Positions 4,203 through 64,000 of a DNA stretch of 64,000 nucleotides are shown one piece after another. This stretch comes from Polynucleobacter sp. Tro8-14-1. GTDB taxonomy: Bacteria; Pseudomonadota; Gammaproteobacteria; Burkholderiales; Burkholderiaceae. A program made the translations under genes and the position numbers. The DNA is taken from contig NZ_JACVPX010000002.1 in the NCBI RefSeq assembly GCF_018881655.1, positions 62,001-126,000 on the forward strand. Reading direction: 5' to 3'. The notes below the pieces were generated by a model, which did no database searches, was not told where the DNA came from, and saw only the letters and a list, made by a program, of their open reading frames with translations. The first letter of the stretch is position 1. Each line of letters begins with the position of its first letter.

Positions 4203-5882
4203 TTATTGAGTGCTTGCTGCTTGTTTTAATCGTTCAATAAAACGCTGGGGTGGCATGTAGCCAATCACACGTTGGTCTTTTAGCTCTTCTGAATTTTGAT
4301 TAAAGATCAGAATTCCTGGGGGACCAAATAAACCGAAGCGCTTCAGTAATACCTGGTTCTCCGGGCTGTTTGCAGTAACGTCCGCTTGCAATAAGACAAA
4401 CTGTTTTAGCTCTTTACTTACCTCTGGATTTGTAAAGGTACTTACTTCCATCTCCTTACAGCTAATACACCAGTCCGCATAAAAATCTAGGAGGACCGCT
4501 TTCTTCTCCTCTTTGGCTTTGCTTAATTGCGCATCCAACTCCGCAGGCGAATGAATCACCACAAAAGATAAATCACCTACTTGATGAATACTCTGGCCAT
4601 TGACTGTTTTTGTGGTTCCCGCAAGATCATTTTTCTGGATCAATGGCGAGGCAATCCATACTGCCGTGGCGACCAGAAGAACTCCCAAGGTACGCTGCAA
4701 ATAAACCATCCAAATACCCGTGGATGGAATCAGAATACGGGCCTCAATCGCAATAAAAAATAGTGGCAAACCCATTCCTAGGGCCATTACAAAAAGGAGT
4801 CCTGCGCCTAGGCTCATAGAGCCGGTTTGCGCAATAAAGGCCAAAACGCCCGCTAGGGGCGCAGTAATACAGGGGCTGGCCACTAAAGTAGAAATACCCC
4901 CCAAAGCAAAAGCGCCAAACACATTGCCGCCCTTTTGACGCCCTGCCAACCGATCTACATGGTGATGCCATGATTGCGGCAACCGAAGGTCATATAAGCC
5001 AAATAAACTGCCTGAAAGGGCTAAAAGTAATAGGGCAAAAGCAGCTAATGCGAAGGGACTCTGCAAAGCCCGCTGTACGCTCCCACCAAGGGCTGCCATA
5101 AGCACTCCTGCCAAGGCGTATACCAATGCCATACCAAAAACATAGGCCAGCGCTAAGATGCTGGCACGCCCCTTGGTTACAGCCTTACCGTCTTGAGTGC
5201 CAAAGATAACGCTCGACAAAATAGGCAACATGGGAAGGACGCAGGGTGTAAAAGCGAGCGCAAGCCCCAATACAAAGAAAGCTAGCAATAAATAAGCAGT
5301 TGAAGTGCTTTCTAAAAAGCGAGCAATAGCATTGACGTCATCACGCTCACGCCATAAATCAGCCAAGCTGAATTCGCCACTAGCCTGGGGGCTAGATAAA
5401 GGCATGCCATCTAAAGCATCTGGAATAGGGGCTACTTTAACCCCGGGACCTGCGAGTAAAAATTTCAGGGTCATAGGTGGATAGCAAATGCCTGCCTCCG
5501 CGCAACCTTGCAGTGTTACAGCTGCATGGATCGGCTTGCCATCGGCAGGCTTTATATCTAAAAGTACTAGGAAGGATTCTTTATAAACTTGCAGTTTTTT
5601 CTGAAAAGTCTCATCAAACTTCACCACACCCGTTGGCAATGAAGGCCTTATATTGATTAGCTTCTCGGCCTGCGTGCCCGCTTGAAACTTTAAAGATTCT
5701 TGATAGATGTAATAGCCTTTAGTGGGCAAAAATTCCAGCTCCACTTGATTGGAATTTTCCAACCAAGTAGCCTCCACTCGGAACGCTTTCTCTGGGGGCA
5801 AGAAATCCGGCGCAGCAAAAACTTGCGCGGACAGGAATAAAAATAGGGCAAAGATCTTTGCTACAAAGGAATGCATTCTCAT
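4203..5882 (-). CDS. dsbD: Thiol:disulfide interchange protein DsbD
   Basis: An inner-membrane electron shuttle that moves reducing power from cytoplasmic thioredoxin to the periplasm for disulfide isomerisation and cytochrome c maturation. In order: a signal peptide (residues 1-23), a periplasmic N-domain with the cysteine pair in GCAEAGICYPP, a multi-helix membrane domain with FTPCVLPMLPI and ASPCITAPLAG, and a C-terminal thioredoxin domain with YADWCISC. At 559 residues it is full length. The start overlaps the cutA stop by 4 nt (ATGA), so the two are probably one operon. Confidence 0.96.
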   Translation of the reverse strand: MRMHSFVAKIFALFLFLSAQVFAAPDFLPPEKAFRVEATWLENSNQVELEFLPTKGYYIYQESLKFQAGTQAEKLINIRPSLPTGVVKFDETFQKKLQVYKESFLVLLDIKPADGKPIHAAVTLQGCAEAGICYPPMTLKFLLAGPGVKVAPIPDALDGMPLSSPQASGEFSLADLWRERDDVNAIARFLESTSTAYLLLAFFVLGLALAFTPCVLPMLPILSSVIFGTQDGKAVTKGRASILALAYVFGMALVYALAGVLMAALGGSVQRALQSPFALAAFALLLLALSGSLFGLYDLRLPQSWHHHVDRLAGRQKGGNVFGAFALGGISTLVASPCITAPLAGVLAFIAQTGSMSLGAGLLFVMALGMGLPLFFIAIEARILIPSTGIWMVYLQRTLGVLLVATAVWIASPLIQKNDLAGTTKTVNGQSIHQVGDLSFVVIHSPAELDAQLSKAKEEKKAVLLDFYADWCISCKEMEVSTFTNPEVSKELKQFVLLQADVTANSPENQVLLKRFGLFGPPGILIFNQNSEELKDQRVIGYMPPQRFIERLKQAASTQ

Positions 5883-8879: not shown

Positions 8880-9245
8880 TTATTTCTTGAGTTGCACACC
8901 AGACTTGCGTGGGCCCTTGCGGGTACGCGCATTAGTCTTAGTACGTTGACCACGTACAGGCAAGCCCTTACGATGACGAACACCGCGGTAGCAACCTAAG
9001 TCCATCAAACGCTTGATGCTCATAGTTACTTCACGACGAAGGTCACCTTCGGTAATGAATTTACCTACTTCATCGCGCAACTTTTCCAAGTCAGCGTCAG
9101 TAAGGTCTTTAACTTTTTTATTGATTGCAACACCTGTGGTTTGACAAATTTTGTTAGCACGAGTTGTGCCAATGCCAAAAATAGCTGTTAAACCGATAAC
9201 AGTATGTTGATGATTTGGGATGTTTACCCCAGCGATACGTGCCAT
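8880..9245 (-). CDS. rpsM: 30S ribosomal protein S13
   Basis: 121 residues starting [11 protein letters not shown], with the helix-two-turn-helix region and the basic tail [16 protein letters not shown] that reaches P-site tRNA. It is located in the 30S head and forms bridges to the 50S subunit. It follows rpmJ, as in the standard spc-alpha junction. Confidence 0.98.
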
Positions 9246-48488: not shown

Positions 48489-48564
48489 GCGCCCGTAGCT
48501 CAGTGGATAGAGTATTGGCCTCCGAAGCCAAGGGTCGCAGGTTCGATTCCTGCCGGGCGCACCA
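48489..48564 (+). tRNA. tRNA-Arg (CCG), likely island attachment site
   Basis: A 76-nt cloverleaf starting GCGCCCG, anticodon CCG in CTCCGAA, T-loop GGTTCGATT, encoded CCA. A recombinase-encoding island starts immediately after its 3' end, so its 3' half is the likely attB/attL core. No second copy of the 3' end was seen inside the window. Confidence 0.97.
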
Positions 48565-49167: not shown

Positions 49168-49404
49168 ATGGCACAGACCTATCTCACCACTGAAGAGCTT
49201 TCAGCTCGCATCAAATATGACCCCCGCACGATTCGGGATCAACTTAAAGATTCTGTCTTATTAGAGGGACGTCATTATTTCCGCCCTTTTGGCGGAAGAA
49301 AGATTCTCTATATCTGGGAAGTTATTGAGGATGACATGACAAAGGCGATCTCTTCGACCCTAAATCAAATCCCAATGGCAAGAGGGGGCGTTGTTCATGT
49401 CTAA
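49168..49404 (+). CDS. Excisionase-like DNA-binding protein
   Basis: 78 residues from ATG at 49168 with GGAG 7 nt upstream; the ORF-track start at 49156 leaves no such site. The winged-helix-like start YLTTEELSARIKYDPRTIRDQLKDSVLLEGRHY and the IWEVIEDDM segment resemble small excisionase/AlpA-type proteins. It overlaps the integrase start by 8 nt, so the two are coupled. Confidence 0.75.
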   Translation: MAQTYLTTEELSARIKYDPRTIRDQLKDSVLLEGRHYFRPFGGRKILYIWEVIEDDMTKAISSTLNQIPMARGGVVHV

Positions 49405-50956
49405 CATTCGCGTCAGAAAAGAAACTGGGCGCCTCTTTCTGGATTTCCGAGTTTTTGGGATTCGCTGTAGAGAGCAAACGGAATTGGGTGACTCCAAGGC
49501 TAACCGCAAATTACTGGCCAAGCTAGATGAAAACATCAAAGTAGCTGTAGCCAATGGCTCTTACCGCCATGAGCACTTCTTTCCAATGAGTAAACGCATT
49601 GCAGAAGTAGAAGAAGCACGACTGGCTATTAGCACCCCTGCTATTAATAAGGCTCCCACCAACTTGGTTTTAGCCATTGCTGGAATGCTACCCGACCGCC
49701 CGCCATCAACCCATCGTCAAACCCCACTGTTTTCCGACTTTGCCAATCAATGGTACTCAGAGATGGAAGTAGGGTGGAAGCGTTCGCATCGCACTACTAC
49801 TAGAGGTGTCCTGGATAACTTTCTAATTCCTCAATTTGGCCAAAAGACGGTAAATGAGATTAAAAAGGGTGAAATTCTCGCTTTTAGATCATCTTTAGCG
49901 AAGTTACCCGGAATTAAGAACAAAGAGAGCCTTTCAGCTTCTCGCATCAACCACATCATGACCCCGCTGCGGATGATATTGACAGAGGCTGCCGATCGCT
50001 ATGAATTTGCCCCGGCCTTTATCAATATCAAACCTTTAAGAGTGGGCAAGACCGATGTGCAGCCGTTCACGATGCAAGAAGTCCAAGACATTCTTCACAC
50101 GGTTCGAGCTGACTTTCGCAACTACTATATCGTTCGCTTCTTTACGGGGACCCGTACTGGTGAGATCGATGGCCTCAAATGGCAGTACGTTGATTTTGAA
50201 CGTCGCACGATTTCCATAAAAGAGACGATTGTGAATGACTATGAGGAAACTCCCAAAACGGGAGAGTCCGAGCGTGACATCCAAATGTCCCAGATGGTCT
50301 TTGATGCGCTTTTGGCTCAGCACAAAGTAACAGGGCAGGGCGTGTATGTTTTTGCAACCAGTGCTGGAACGCCCATTTCTCATCGCAATATTTCTAAGCG
50401 AGTTTGGTATCCGCTCTTAAGATTATTGGGCCTGAAAAAGCGAGTGCCCTATCAAACTCGCCATACCTATGCCACCCTCATGTTGGCTTCTGGCGAGGCC
50501 CCCGAATGGATCGCCCGTCAGATGGGACACACCACTACCGAGATGCTCTTTCGGGTGTACTCAAGATTCATTCCAAACTTGACCCGCCAGGATGGAAGCG
50601 CCTTTGAACGACTCATGGCAGCGCAGATGCAAGACCAGCCGCACCCCATTGTGAACCCCCAATCACTCAATGAAGTAAGCGCCCACTCAGTTATAAATCC
50701 CAACAGCATTGGAGTGAATCATTTACCGAAAACTCAGAGTCGGGTGACTGAGAAAGTTGAACAAGCACCAGAATTACCTGAGCCCGAAACCCCAAAGCCT
50801 CCAGTTGCACTGCCCAACACTCGAATCAATCCAAGTGCTGATGCTGCACTGATCGCTAATCCTTGGCTAGAAATTGCCAAACATTCTGGTCTTTCTATGC
50901 CCCCTAAAGTCGACCCAACCCCACCCTCAGATCACCCAAAGGGAGGCCTTTTATGA
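49397..50956 (+). CDS. Tyrosine recombinase (phage-type integrase)
   Basis: 519 residues from ATG at 49397, with AGAGGGGG 9 nt upstream. An N-terminal arm-DNA-binding segment (IRVRKETGRLFLDFRVFG, as in DUF3596-type integrases) is followed by a core-binding SAM-like domain (about 110-200) and the catalytic domain. Catalytic residues are the Arg in GTRTGEIDG, RHTY, the MGH histidine and the Tyr in FRVYSRF. A Pro-rich tail of about 110 residues follows. It probably moves the island at tRNA-Arg. Its stop overlaps the next gene (ATGA). Confidence 0.95.
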   Translation: MSNIRVRKETGRLFLDFRVFGIRCREQTELGDSKANRKLLAKLDENIKVAVANGSYRHEHFFPMSKRIAEVEEARLAISTPAINKAPTNLVLAIAGMLPDRPPSTHRQTPLFSDFANQWYSEMEVGWKRSHRTTTRGVLDNFLIPQFGQKTVNEIKKGEILAFRSSLAKLPGIKNKESLSASRINHIMTPLRMILTEAADRYEFAPAFINIKPLRVGKTDVQPFTMQEVQDILHTVRADFRNYYIVRFFTGTRTGEIDGLKWQYVDFERRTISIKETIVNDYEETPKTGESERDIQMSQMVFDALLAQHKVTGQGVYVFATSAGTPISHRNISKRVWYPLLRLLGLKKRVPYQTRHTYATLMLASGEAPEWIARQMGHTTTEMLFRVYSRFIPNLTRQDGSAFERLMAAQMQDQPHPIVNPQSLNEVSAHSVINPNSIGVNHLPKTQSRVTEKVEQAPELPEPETPKPPVALPNTRINPSADAALIANPWLEIAKHSGLSMPPKVDPTPPSDHPKGGLL

Positions 50957-52877: not shown

Positions 52878-53579
52878 ATGACTGCTTCTGAACTTAGCCC
52901 CATCCTAGAGCGCCAGTTGCTATTGCAACTAGGCGATCGCATTAAGCGCTTACGTAAAGCGCAAGGGCTTGGCACGGTCGAAGTATCTGCGTGCGCAAAA
53001 CTTACTCGTAATACTCTGCGGTCCATTGAAGCAGGCGATCCATCTCCTTCAATCGGCGCTTACCTAAGAGTGATGTCCGTTCTGGGCGTTAGCGGAGAGT
53101 TAGCGCTTTTGGCGGGCGACACGATGCAGGCCTCTCCAGCTGGATCAGCAGGAGCAAGGTCCAGACGCATTACCCCTAACGTACAAGTACGCGTTTTGCC
53201 AGATAACGCCGGGCACCGACTTCAAGATCTACAAAGTCTTGCCCTGCATGAAGAGGCTGTTCGGCTGGTAAAGACTGATCCTGCATTACTGCTACAAGCT
53301 CAAGATACCGTAGAGCGTTGGCTTGCTGCTGGCGATTCTCGCTCAGCTGGCCTATGGCGTGAATGGCAACTGATCTTAAGTGCAGGCTCTTGGCGCAAAG
53401 TGCTTGGCCGCACGAGGCATGCCCAGCAACTTAGACAAACCTCACCACTGGTGACCATTCTTCCAGATGAAGTGCGCCTTCGTATTTTGAAGGATGTGAG
53501 CGCGCTCAAAAAAGGGGTCGTATTTGGCAGCTCTATAACTGGCACCCAAGATGATGAAGCCTTCAAGGAGTTACCATGA
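52878..53579 (+). CDS. Xre-family regulator, antitoxin-like partner of a nucleotidyltransferase
   Basis: 233 residues. Residues 15-75 are an HTH_3 domain (LGDRIKRLRKAQGLGTVEVSACAKLTRNTLRSIEAG). The remainder (AGDTMQASPAGSAG linker, then a helical domain to about 230) is unassigned but carries conserved-looking WREWQLIL and LLP-type motifs. It overlaps the next gene by 4 nt (ATGA), giving a tight two-gene module. Codon use is more GC-rich than the genes that follow, suggesting separate origin. Confidence 0.8.
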   Translation: MTASELSPILERQLLLQLGDRIKRLRKAQGLGTVEVSACAKLTRNTLRSIEAGDPSPSIGAYLRVMSVLGVSGELALLAGDTMQASPAGSAGARSRRITPNVQVRVLPDNAGHRLQDLQSLALHEEAVRLVKTDPALLLQAQDTVERWLAAGDSRSAGLWREWQLILSAGSWRKVLGRTRHAQQLRQTSPLVTILPDEVRLRILKDVSALKKGVVFGSSITGTQDDEAFKELP

Positions 53580-54136
53580 CACGAGAAGAGCTAGAGCACA
53601 TCATTCGCGCCAGCGCTGATGTCACCAACCAATATGAATTTGTGATCATCGGCAGCCAGTCAATGCTAGGCCAAGTGCCCAATCCAGAAAAGGTCTTCAC
53701 CGTTTCTATGGAAGCGGACATCTATCCACGACAGGCTCCTGACTTGGCTGATGAGATTGATGGTGCAATTGGTGAAGGCTCGCAATTCCACGAGACTTAT
53801 GGTTACTACGCTCAAGGTGTGGGGCCGGATACCGCAATACTGCCAAAAGACTGGATGTCGCGTATCCATCGCGTGCAAAACAACAATACCAATGGTCGAG
53901 TGGGGTACTGCCTTGATGTGCTTGATCTCTTTCTTGCAAAGGCTGCGGCAGGGCGGGACAAAGATCGAGAGTTTTGTATGGCGCTACTGGAGTACGCCTA
54001 CCTTGCGCCCGCTCAAGCCCTAGAGTTGGTGCCGACTATGCCGCTCGATGATGGTGTGCAGCGAACGCTACGCGCAACGATTCGTCGCTGGGCAAAAGCA
54101 TTACGAGATGCGGGTCACGATATTCCACAGGATTAA
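53576..54136 (+). CDS. Nucleotidyltransferase-fold protein (DUF6036-like, toxin-like)
   Basis: 186 residues. FVIIGSQSMLGQ supplies the GS motif of the nucleotidyltransferase fold and MEADIYPR the acidic metal-binding strand; a YCLDVLDLFLAKAAAGRDKDREF segment follows. The nearest family I recognise is DUF6036/AbiEii-MNT-like proteins, which pair with Xre or AbiEi-type partners in toxin-antitoxin or abortive-infection modules. The coupling to the upstream HTH gene supports this. Substrate unknown. Confidence 0.75.
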   Translation: MTREELEHIIRASADVTNQYEFVIIGSQSMLGQVPNPEKVFTVSMEADIYPRQAPDLADEIDGAIGEGSQFHETYGYYAQGVGPDTAILPKDWMSRIHRVQNNNTNGRVGYCLDVLDLFLAKAAAGRDKDREFCMALLEYAYLAPAQALELVPTMPLDDGVQRTLRATIRRWAKALRDAGHDIPQD

Positions 54137-60272: not shown

Positions 60273-60956
60273 ATGGAAAATGAATACGATGCAATTCGAG
60301 AGCTAGCAAAAACCGCGGGAAAAGGAATTGATGCGACACGAGAAATGGGTGGCTTTATTGCTAAATATATCGGCGGCCCTTTAGAGCAGGGGATAGGAAT
60401 ATTTGAGGATCGACTGAAATTTCTGCGCTGGGAGCGTCAAATTCGCCTCATCAGGCGCGTACAAGAAATCCTGGATGAGTCAGGCCTCAAAGCCCCAACC
60501 CAAAATGTTCCGATGAAGCTATTGATTCCCATCCTCCAAGGCGCAACCCTTGAGGAAAATGACTCCCTTCAGGATATTTGGGCCAATCTTTTGGTGAATG
60601 CTGCCAATGCCTCTTTTGGTGAAGAAGTGCGCTCCTCATACATTTCAATTCTTGAGCAATTAAACCCACTAGATGCACAAATTCTAAATACCCTTTATTC
60701 GCTGCCATTTAATGAAAGTCAACACAACGGTATTCTTACTGCGGAACTTCCAGAAATTGCGCGAATTGCAGAAGAGGATAGAAAAGAAAATCCACTGCCG
60801 CCGAATAATGAGATAGTTATTTGTTTAAGCAACTTGGTGCGACTCGGGTGCCTACGCCCAGAAATGACCTGGGGTGGCGGGGAGGTCTTTGGAAGGGTTA
60901 ACCCAACCATTGCTGGTAGGGCCTTTGTAAATGCCTGCCGCATTAGAAAAATATAG
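60273..60956 (+). CDS. Abi-alpha (DUF4393) protein
   Basis: 227 residues. GGPLEQGIGIFEDRLKFLRWERQIRLIRRVQEIL is a long amphipathic helix. The core LLIPILQGATLEENDSLQDIWANLLVNAAN followed by ILEQLNPLDAQILNTLY is the DUF4393/Abi-alpha signature. A C-terminal winged-helix-like part (LSNLVRLGCLRPE) ends the protein. AGGTGAG precedes the ATG. The family name reflects phage-resistance proteins; the mechanism is unknown. It is the first gene of a four-gene run that ends with two protease-like genes. Confidence 0.85.
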   Translation: MENEYDAIRELAKTAGKGIDATREMGGFIAKYIGGPLEQGIGIFEDRLKFLRWERQIRLIRRVQEILDESGLKAPTQNVPMKLLIPILQGATLEENDSLQDIWANLLVNAANASFGEEVRSSYISILEQLNPLDAQILNTLYSLPFNESQHNGILTAELPEIARIAEEDRKENPLPPNNEIVICLSNLVRLGCLRPEMTWGGGEVFGRVNPTIAGRAFVNACRIRKI

Positions 60957-60979
60957 GCTAAAGTTAACTCAAAATCATT

Positions 60980-61483
60980 ATGACAATAAAACGCGAAGCT
61001 GCATTCCACGAGGCCGGCCACGCCATTGCTGCATACCAGTCAAAATTCCACGCTTTATGTGGCCCGATTAATCTCATGAATTATGGGGCTGGCGAAATCT
61101 TTATTTCCCTGAGCAAAAGTAAACTGAGGGCTGCCGGAAAGCCCATTGATAACTCAATACAAAAGGATGGGGAAATTGTTGACGATCTTGCCACTATTCT
61201 TAGCGCTGGCCTAGCTGCCGAATATTTAGCCGAGCTAAAAGTGGATGGTTTGAAGGCGGATCCAACTTGCGCTAAATTAGATCACGACCTATTAAGATCT
61301 CAATTGAGCAATGCAAATCTATCTTTATGCATTGCTCAATACGAGAGCACCGCAATTAAGCTGCTTGAATCTGACTGGTCACTGGTGACCAGTCTCGCCA
61401 ACTATCTTTACGATAATCCGATTTCCAGCCCAAATGACATCATAGCGTTCATCGAACGACATATATTTAGAGATGGCACATAG
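60980..61483 (+). CDS. Stand-alone M41-like zinc metalloprotease
   Basis: 167 residues. REAAFHEAGHAIAAYQ carries the zinc HExGH motif at His10/His14, as in the FtsH (M41) protease domain. DDLATILSAGLAAEYLAE and LDHDLLRSQL match the following helices, with an Asp as likely third ligand. There is no AAA+ domain, so it must work alone or with a partner. It begins 24 nt after the Abi-alpha gene, suggesting joint expression. Confidence 0.8.
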   Translation: MTIKREAAFHEAGHAIAAYQSKFHALCGPINLMNYGAGEIFISLSKSKLRAAGKPIDNSIQKDGEIVDDLATILSAGLAAEYLAELKVDGLKADPTCAKLDHDLLRSQLSNANLSLCIAQYESTAIKLLESDWSLVTSLANYLYDNPISSPNDIIAFIERHIFRDGT

Positions 61484-61573
61484 GAATCATTAAGCCCCAC
61501 CGATAATTGCCTGGAGCGTCATAAAGCAAAAAATAAGGCAAATCTATGATAAATTTCCACTATAGGAGGCGCA

Positions 61574-61768
61574 ATGAAACAAAAAAAGGCCAATAAACTA
61601 CTCAGCGATTCAGATATTTTAGCGCTTCTTTCTGAGGCATCTAGTCAGCTTGAAATTTATACTGCCCTTAACAGAACATCTAACCTTGGCCCAAGTCAAC
61701 AGATGCCGCTTGGTAGACCCAAGGATTGGACGTATCCGATAGGCCTCTCATTTATAAAGAATATCTGA
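61574..61768 (+). CDS. 64-residue protein of unknown function
   Basis: The sequence MKQKKANKLLSDSDILALLSEA begins after a full TAGGAGG ribosome binding site, strong evidence for a real gene. The first half is helical; the second half (SQQMPLGRPKDWTYPIG) is not. No family recognised. It ends 1 nt before the SDH-type protease gene, so translation is likely coupled; an inhibitor, adaptor or substrate role for the protease is possible but speculative. Confidence 0.7.
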   Translation: MKQKKANKLLSDSDILALLSEASSQLEIYTALNRTSNLGPSQQMPLGRPKDWTYPIGLSFIKNI

Positions 61769-61769
61769 T

Positions 61770-62693
61770 ATGGCGGCGTGGTCTCAATTAGTAGACGAAT
61801 TAAATTCCCTCTCTGCCGACCCGAATATCAAACACCAGTGGCTTGTAAGCAATCTTACAACGGCATTAGCAAATATTTCAAAGCTCAGAAAAGACAGGAA
61901 TGTTCTTTTTTATGCTTCAGCCTTCCTACAGAAGCCACACTTAAACCCCGATGCCATTCAAATTACCTATGAAGAAATAAATGGATTCATGTCCTGTTTG
62001 TATGGGATGGATTTCAATAAGGGGCTGACTTTGATTCTTCACACTCCAGGAGGCGTCACGAATGCAGCCGAATCAATCGTTCAATATCTTCATAGTAAAT
62101 TTAAGGATATAGAGGTAATTATTCCCACCTTTGCTATGTCTGCTGGAACGATGATCAGCCTGTCAGCAAATAGAATAATTATGGGCCGACCAAGCCAACT
62201 AGGCCCAATAGATCCTCAAATTCCTATTTCAGGAAAATTTGTATCTGCACGAGCAATTGTTGATCAATTTGCAAAGGCAAAATTGGAAATTAGCTCTGAC
62301 CTTGCTTTGGCTCATGCATGGGCCCCAATACTACAATCGCTTGGGCCTGCGCTTTTAGTCGAAGCTGAGTATGCATTAGATTATGGCGAGAGGATGGTGG
62401 CATCGTGGCTTGCAAATAGAATGCTAAAAAGATCGCCCAATAAAATCACTAAAGCGCAAGCTATCGCTCGATACTTCAATGATGCAAGCACTCACAAGAG
62501 TCATGGCAGAAGAATTGATATTGCTGAAGCTAAGCGACAAGGTGTTAATGTTATAGCATTAGAAAGTGATCAAAAATTACAAAATGAGGTTCTTACCGCA
62601 TATCATTTGGCCACAATTTTGATTGGACAAACTGTAATTTCTAAATTGCTTTGGAATAACCTCGGAATTAGCTGGGTGAAGAATCACTCTTGA
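61770..62693 (+). CDS. SDH-type serine protease (ClpP/crotonase fold)
   Basis: 307 residues. LTLILHTPGGVTNAAESIVQYL forms the oxyanion-hole strand, IIPTFAMSAGTMISLSANRI contains the catalytic Ser124, and MGRPSQLGPIDPQIP carries the downstream acidic/helix element. This is the serine dehydrogenase proteinase (PF01972-like) pattern, related to SppA/ClpP. Family members turn up in defence islands. It overlaps the convergent recombinase gene by 10 nt. Confidence 0.85.
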   Translation: MAAWSQLVDELNSLSADPNIKHQWLVSNLTTALANISKLRKDRNVLFYASAFLQKPHLNPDAIQITYEEINGFMSCLYGMDFNKGLTLILHTPGGVTNAAESIVQYLHSKFKDIEVIIPTFAMSAGTMISLSANRIIMGRPSQLGPIDPQIPISGKFVSARAIVDQFAKAKLEISSDLALAHAWAPILQSLGPALLVEAEYALDYGERMVASWLANRMLKRSPNKITKAQAIARYFNDASTHKSHGRRIDIAEAKRQGVNVIALESDQKLQNEVLTAYHLATILIGQTVISKLLWNNLGISWVKNHS

Positions 62694-64000
62694 TAATAAA
62701 ACATAAAAATACCCCCCAACAAAATCATCATCTGCCTAAAAGCAAATGGCAAATCATCCGCCGCCTTACCTCCGCACTTTAATACCAGACTATTTTTTCC
62801 AGTGGGCGCATAGCCGACTTCTAATGCATCCAGAAATCTCATATAGGTCTCATTGATTGGGCTTGAAATAACCGCGCTTTTCCTTTTATGTTGGCCGATA
62901 CCCAATTCTTTCTGAGTAAATTTAATCGCATCTGCCCTTGCTCTAATTCGCTCTTTGGCGTAATCAAGCAATAAGAAGATATCGTCAGGATGCATTTCAA
63001 AATACGCGGTTGCTTTTGTAAGCCATTGATCAGCCTTCTTGATTCCCCCTCGCATACGCGGCTTTTTGACAATAAAAGCCTTGGGCAAGGGATCGGGTAA
63101 ATTTTCGTAAAGATACTTTCTATCTGATGCATATAGGTCGGCTTGATTGGTGAACGCGGTGGCATTGCTGATCCAGTGATGAGCAAGCTCTTCCGGAATA
63201 TCAAGTAACGCAGCCGTTTTAGCAAACCGCTTCTCATCTGCGCTTACAAGCCTCTCGAAACTATCGCAAGCCCACTCAATCCCCCGCCCAGCATCAGGAT
63301 TCAATATCTGCACAAGGTTTAAATGCTTTGAAGTCTGTTTTTGAATCTTTGGCCCTGGACTCATCACCTCATTGAGTAACACCGGAACTTTATCTAGCCC
63401 AGCCTTGGGGTCATCAAATGGCGTTTTGCACCGCCTACGTCTGATATCTAAATTACGTTTAGTGCCAGGATAGAGCGCATTTAGTAACCCCGGATTTAAG
63501 CGCAACAAACGTTCATGTAAAAAAGCGCCGGTCAGTACATCAATCACGTGGATGTAGCTATATAGAGTCGTTGCAGGCGAAGAGTGCCCAAGCAAAGTAG
63601 ATACGACATAGAGCTCTGATGGACTTGCCCTCGAGTCATTGAGTAAAAAATAACGGGCATATCCCATACGACGCTTGAGATTTCTAATCTGCAAAATGGG
63701 ATTACTTCCATCTGCCATTCCTACAGCCGCATGATCCCTCGCAATGCGCGCCTGGATTTCCGTATTGCCATAAAGGTGATCAAGTATGAAGCGCTCAGAA
63801 TTAGGCAATCGCGGCGCACATAAAAGCATCAAGGTATTCATCGCTGCTGAATGCCGGAGATGATGAAAGCGGATATAGGGATTTTTTGTGACCCGCCTCA
63901 TCGACTCATGAATATAGTCAATGATTCTGTCGCGCTCGGTGTTACTCGTTATTTCTAGGGAATTCTTCTCGCGCGCTTTAGCGCTCATTGGTACCGGGAA
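62684..64000 (-). CDS. Second tyrosine recombinase, partial, with long C-terminal extension
   Basis: The reading frame is open to the window edge; the ORF-track start at 63988 is internal, because no stop lies upstream. The visible part has the catalytic FHHLRHSAAMNTL and VSTLLGHSSPATTLYSYIHV motifs (Tyr nucleophile); the N-terminal Arg is outside the window. About 280 residues of helical, basic extension follow the catalytic domain. It differs clearly from the tRNA-Arg integrase, so it belongs to another element or to the far side of this one. Confidence 0.85.
   Translation of the reverse strand, partial: FPVPMSAKAREKNSLEITSNTERDRIIDYIHESMRRVTKNPYIRFHHLRHSAAMNTLMLLCAPRLPNSERFILDHLYGNTEIQARIARDHAAVGMADGSNPILQIRNLKRRMGYARYFLLNDSRASPSELYVVSTLLGHSSPATTLYSYIHVIDVLTGAFLHERLLRLNPGLLNALYPGTKRNLDIRRRRCKTPFDDPKAGLDKVPVLLNEVMSPGPKIQKQTSKHLNLVQILNPDAGRGIEWACDSFERLVSADEKRFAKTAALLDIPEELAHHWISNATAFTNQADLYASDRKYLYENLPDPLPKAFIVKKPRMRGGIKKADQWLTKATAYFEMHPDDIFLLLDYAKERIRARADAIKFTQKELGIGQHKRKSAVISSPINETYMRFLDALEVGYAPTGKNSLVLKCGGKAADDLPFAFRQMMILLGGIFMFYYQE

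Follow-up and report, generated by a model that had tools for sequence, protein, structure and literature searches.

Lit, a protease borne by the Escherichia coli prophage e14, is used for phage exclusion and is activated by a phage peptide. The protease PH1510-N of Pyrococcus horikoshii, which belongs to the STOPP-stomatin operon pair, binds the stomatin PH1511, the other product of the operon, at its hydrophobic C-terminal stretch and cleaves it there (PMC3795559). Here we describe two adjacent genes for a small protein and a serine protease, which form a conserved but hardly annotated pair in prophages of many bacterial groups. One copy is located in a stretch of 64,000 nucleotides from Polynucleobacter sp. 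Tro8-14-1, the whole of which is referred to as the window. An original prediction made for this DNA had combined four genes at 60273-62693 into a proteolytic defence cascade.

The four open reading frames indeed lie on one strand (60273-60956, 60980-61483, 61574-61768 and 61770-62693) with gaps of 23, 90 and 1 nt, and the first of them (60273..60956, +) was correctly recognized as an Abi-alpha (DUF4393) gene, since its product matched PF14337 with an E value of 4e-24 and 86.1 bits at a curated Pfam cut-off of 29. For gene 2 (60980..61483, +), the assignment to the M41 zinc proteases had to be abandoned. Its product of 167 amino acids reached 14.4 bits against Pfam M41 (cut-off 29.9), the match was limited to residues 4-22, which correspond to the HEAGH motif, and an AAA+ domain is absent, which places the protein outside FtsH/M41. 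Relatives of gene 2 were found neither among 150 relatives, 369 genomes of the class and 300 genomes of the order nor on plasmids, phages or viral contigs. The assumption that the four genes constitute a unit did not withstand a check of their co-occurrence, as genes 1-2 and genes 3-4 occur independently. Among the 369 genomes of the class, Abi-alpha is present in ten and strong PHROG 11747 matches (E<=1e-60) in eight, and the genome of the window is the sole one in which a close relative of the SDH protease occurs alongside Abi-alpha. Around the ten other Abi-alpha loci (~1.5 kb) we detected neither a protease nor a HEAGH ORF, and no further SDH locus had a HEAGHA ORF in its vicinity. We therefore separated genes 1-2 from the small ORF and the protease and rejected the four-gene system. 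The common strand and the gaps would make co-transcription possible, and between the genes the plus strand shows just weak terminator-like sites, but the four genes were never encountered together elsewhere, gene 2 is an orphan, and Abi-alpha (ef2833), described in Enterococcus faecalis prophage 6, confers abortive infection as a single gene (PMC6356687). Hence, the cascade as first proposed is largely refuted and must be regarded as very improbable. On these data, Abi-alpha and the HEAGH ORF are best described as unrelated neighbours of the pair in a defence island.

This island of about 23.2 kb, which holds all four genes, extends from 48541 to the end of the window at 64000 and on to about 71729 (extended coordinates). 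It is associated with a tRNA-Arg gene (48489-48564) and an integrase gene (49391-50956). A 20-bp exact repeat of the 3' part of the tRNA is situated at 48541 and at extended position 71710, and core-type genes follow the second copy. The gene content includes AbiJ_NTD4, KAP NTPase, PDC-S31, Abi-alpha and AbiE. No recognisable promoter of its own was found for the cassette in the window, and the pair may be co-transcribed with genes 1-2. Because the island is rich in defence genes, it is reasonable, if unproven, to suspect that the window pair serves in phage defence. The genes adjoining this copy are not constant among the loci, so that guilt by association is weak. Within the right end of the island an AbiEi_2/AbiEii toxin-antitoxin pair was identified (L220 6042-7908), and at window positions 52878-54136 an HTH gene overlaps a gene for a DUF6036 nucleotidyltransferase, which makes them a candidate AbiE-like pair. 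A gene for a weakly tyrosine-recombinase-like protein (window 62684-64000, -) converges on the SDH gene, and close to it a protein of 1026 amino acids without a Pfam family is encoded (region L220 2821-5901, -). On an Acidiphilium plasmid (L003), a recombinase and a VPA1269-family protein are also found near the SDH pair.

The SDH-type protease comprises 307 amino acids, and its gene (61770..62693, +) begins 1 nt after the small ORF, as had been predicted. Residues 83-169 matched PF01972 SDH_protease with 67.4 bits (curated Pfam cut-off 31.3) and the protein was assigned to PHROG 11747 ('unknown function') with an E value of 4e-71, whereas the score of 80.8 bits for the SDH Clp-fold equivalog NF047768 lies below its cut-off of 250. 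The Ser124 that had been singled out as catalytic proved to be invariant. Together with Asp148 and His245 it was present in 61/61 non-redundant proteases, in the order Ser-Asp-His expected by PF01972. On the plus strand of the window, the codons of the three residues occupy positions 62139..62141 (Ser124, the putative nucleophile, AMSAGTM), 62211..62213 (Asp148, GPIDPQ) and 62502..62504 (His245, SHGR). In an AlphaFold2 model of the close relative L063 the protease attained a pLDDT of about 97, and the protease part of a model of L125 was confident too. Foldseek returned PH1510-N as the best solved match, followed by ClpP and SppA, and its matches also included an SppA structure with C-termini bound in the active sites. 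A phage head-maturation protease was considered and rejected, as matches to PHROG 53/1684/94 were weak and the E. coli prophages have a separate prohead protease. No PADLOC model was matched by the small protein or the protease.

The small partner of 64 amino acids (61574..61768, +) contains an N-terminal helix region, SDILALLSEASSQLEIYTALN, and a C-terminal tail, TYPIGLSFIKNI. The good ribosome binding site claimed for it does exist, namely AGGAGG at 61564..61569 (+), 4 nt ahead of the ATG. Searches of Pfam, PHROG and NCBIfam with the protein yielded no match, and homologues of the small ORF stand beside SDH relatives. For 17 out of 21 close pairs of small ORFs tested, dN/dS could be computed. 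Sixteen values ranged from 0.04 to 0.22, while the 17th (0.46) derived from just five changes. Thus, purifying selection acts on the protein, from which we concluded that the small ORF is a bona fide gene, both members of the pair being under selection. Where dN/dS was computable for both, it was mostly several-fold higher in the small ORF than in the protease, and small ORFs of different clades align poorly as one family. Despite purifying selection, the small ORFs diverge fast. Within the clade of the window (14 loci), a short helix region is common to the small proteins, as is a C-terminal tail of the form P-[LVI]-x-[ILFV] (in the window residues 53-64, 61730..61765, +), which we propose to dock on the protease. 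The motif was defined on five members of the clade and recovered in 6/9 held-out members (shuffled mean 0.56, p 5e-5). Other clades exhibit different tails, often V-x-[YFW]-[AS]-[ST], and many tails are extended and rich in Ser and Thr. The models of L063 and L125 were calculated as stop-read-through fusions, in which the small part had next to no alignment to rely on and for which an inter-domain error was unavailable. The small-protein helix of L063 reached a pLDDT of about 90 and the small helices of L125 65-80; in both fusions the tail remained below 50, so that its docking was not predicted.

Plasmids, phages, genomes and viral contigs served as sources for relatives of the protease; the viral and plasmid sets were assembled on the basis of similarity and not at random. 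Pairing was scored if an ORF of 50-95 amino acids with a ribosome binding site ended between -40 and +80 nt relative to the start of the protease. Such an ORF was located just upstream of the protease in 52/58 non-redundant loci, while 67/170 other large genes of the same loci had one (odds ratio 13, p 8e-12). In an extended set of 81 non-redundant relatives, which came from phages, prophages, plasmids and islands, a coupled ORF of 45-95 amino acids was found upstream in 65, downstream in six and on both sides in none; two loci are truncated and eight failed the strict criteria. Four of the latter (L010, L072 with the full locus L179, L147 and L156) have a small ORF by relaxed criteria, which leaves four untruncated loci without a recognisable partner (L126, L169, L173 and L175). 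The downstream cases are confined to one part of the tree (10 leaves with one 'upstream' case among them, support 0.71). The gap between the small ORF and the protease has a median of 2 nt, and 43 of the 65 upstream ORFs lie at a distance of <=5 nt or overlap. As the partner may be situated downstream of the protease (6/81 loci) and is selected at the protein level, we rejected the possibility of a leader peptide or a mere translational coupler. That the small ORF and the protease form a unit is well supported by these comparisons. The original prediction had seen in the 64-residue protein a possible inhibitor, adaptor or substrate, any of which it may be, and its partnership with the SDH protease was corroborated by the conserved pairing.

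Proteobacteria, Bacteroidota and Actinomycetota all have phages and prophages with the pair. So far just a solitary protein, labelled 'SDH family' or 'hypothetical', had been recognized, and the pair was overlooked because the small gene is often unannotated. Seven of 50,697 deposited phage records carry the pair, compared to at least 153 viral contigs. A query with a single protease retrieved one locus (L008) from the GTDB contigs, and the viral loci were recovered by an alignment query. The viral loci are surrounded by a mixture of phage genes (integrase, endolysin, terminase, O-antigen acetylase), and, the small ORF excepted, no neighbour was seen to be constant. In E. coli KL53 the pair is inserted between the lysis and terminase genes, in E. 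coli Nissle 1917 between Q and the holin gene. Both copies possess a ribosome binding site, a terminator-like hairpin upstream and a strong terminator directly downstream; the downstream terminator of KL53 was scored by software, the other hairpins and the terminator of Nissle 1917 were read from the sequence. To judge from this arrangement, the pair constitutes a moron-like transcription unit in the two E. coli prophages. Over all loci, terminators right after the protease were modestly enriched (8/62 loci vs 8/240, p 0.007). The small gene is unannotated in KL53 and strain 120899 and a 'hypothetical protein' in Nissle 1917. Small genes resembling that of E. coli were found in 49 E. coli genomes, 42 of them with matches at 99% or more and seven at about 80%, and the counts for the protease agree (42 at 99% or more, seven at about 83%). 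In Nissle 1917 (L221 9001-9900) the SDH gene is annotated from 9031 onwards, and the conserved MPNW start, which lies at 9001, is thereby missed. On the Enterobacter plasmid p16773_5 (L006 4796-5640) the SDH gene is seemingly broken into several frames, and the small ORF at 4529-4783 is intact. Bury et al. reported that the lambdoid 'prophage 3' of Nissle contributes to resistance against lambdoid phages and left further contributing factors open (PMC5987069). The presence of the pair in the harmless strain Nissle 1917 makes its function directly testable.

The explanation that we favour, with somewhat less than even confidence, is that temperate phages and islands carry the pair as a cargo cassette, in which the small protein serves as a dedicated ligand that restrains or aims the protease until a trigger arrives. 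The two genes, for a fast-evolving protein of ~65 amino acids and an SDH-type serine protease of the ClpP fold, would be expressed together through coupled translation. The small protein would be anchored on the protease by its N-terminal helix, and its extended C-terminal tail may lie as a beta-strand within the active cleft or close to it. In this way the free protease would be restrained, or aimed, until the trigger, most likely infection by another phage. The resulting change in the pair may then allow the protease to cleave a host or phage protein, by which the infection would be aborted. A broader idea, which we consider doubtful, is that such cassettes represent a widespread and undescribed class of prophage immunity, in which a hypervariable mini-protein with its tail in the active cleft checks or aims a ClpP-fold protease and, as the variable partner, acts as a sensor of competing phages.

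An ordinary SDH housekeeping protease preceded by a small ORF by chance would be in line with the abundance of distant SDH/SppA-like proteins and of small ORFs in phages (seen at 67/170 control genes). The conservation of the small ORF has already refuted this explanation, which hardly deserves credit given the excess of pairing, the retention of the partner in loci with reversed gene order, the dN/dS values and the homologous partners. It is conceivable, if rather doubtful, that the small protein is a substrate or effector precursor which the protease cuts in the manner of PH1510 and stomatin, the released piece or the loss of the protein being the signal or effector. The specific cleavage of a C-terminal hydrophobic stretch in the operon partner by PH1510-N (PMC3795559), the top solved-structure match of our protease, and the many extended Ser/Thr-rich tails point in this direction. 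On the other hand, the tails of different clades share little sequence, which also holds for the rest of the small protein, and there is no obvious reason for a near-obligate coupling to a mere substrate. Unlikely as well is a late role in the lytic cycle (host take-over, assembly or lysis timing) instead of lysogen cargo. Such a role would suit the positions of the pair in Porphyromonas phages (portal/adaptor genes on one side, neck genes on the other), in a Mu-like phage of Shewanella (behind the late regulator C) and in E. coli (near lysis and terminase genes). However, the positions vary widely among phages, promoter-like and terminator sequences flank the pair in E. coli, and the window copy resides in a non-phage defence island.

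Compared with described systems, the cargo cassette resembles the SDH family (PF01972/NF047768) by the order of its catalytic residues, the GPIDPQ motif and the score above the Pfam cut-off, but differs by the low NF047768 score, a conserved M-x-x-W start and the small partner gene. PHROG 11747, of which the window protease is a member, is listed without a described partner. With PH1510-N and PH1511 it shares the ClpP-like fold and perhaps the principle that a protease acts on the C-terminal stretch of an adjacently encoded protein (PMC3795559), docking being a proposal in our case. PH1510-N, however, has a Ser-Lys dyad, is membrane-bound and is accompanied by a large SPFH partner, whereas the pair described here has invariant Ser, Asp and His residues and a partner of ~65 amino acids. 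The 64-residue protein of the window has no Pfam family above the cut-off, and hence the pair falls outside the STOPP-stomatin type with its SPFH partner. Like type II toxin-antitoxin systems, the pair consists of an adjacent, translationally coupled small and larger gene, the small gene usually comes first, its product evolves fast and the setting is mobile. It differs from them in that the small protein lacks a recognised DNA-binding domain and the gene order is reversible, and toxicity is hypothetical here. The analogy to Lit lies in a prophage-borne protease dedicated to phage exclusion, Lit being a protease of another kind that is not known to have a paired small gene. Should phage exclusion indeed be the role of the pair, it would add regulated proteolysis by an unfoldase-free ClpP-fold enzyme to prophage defence.
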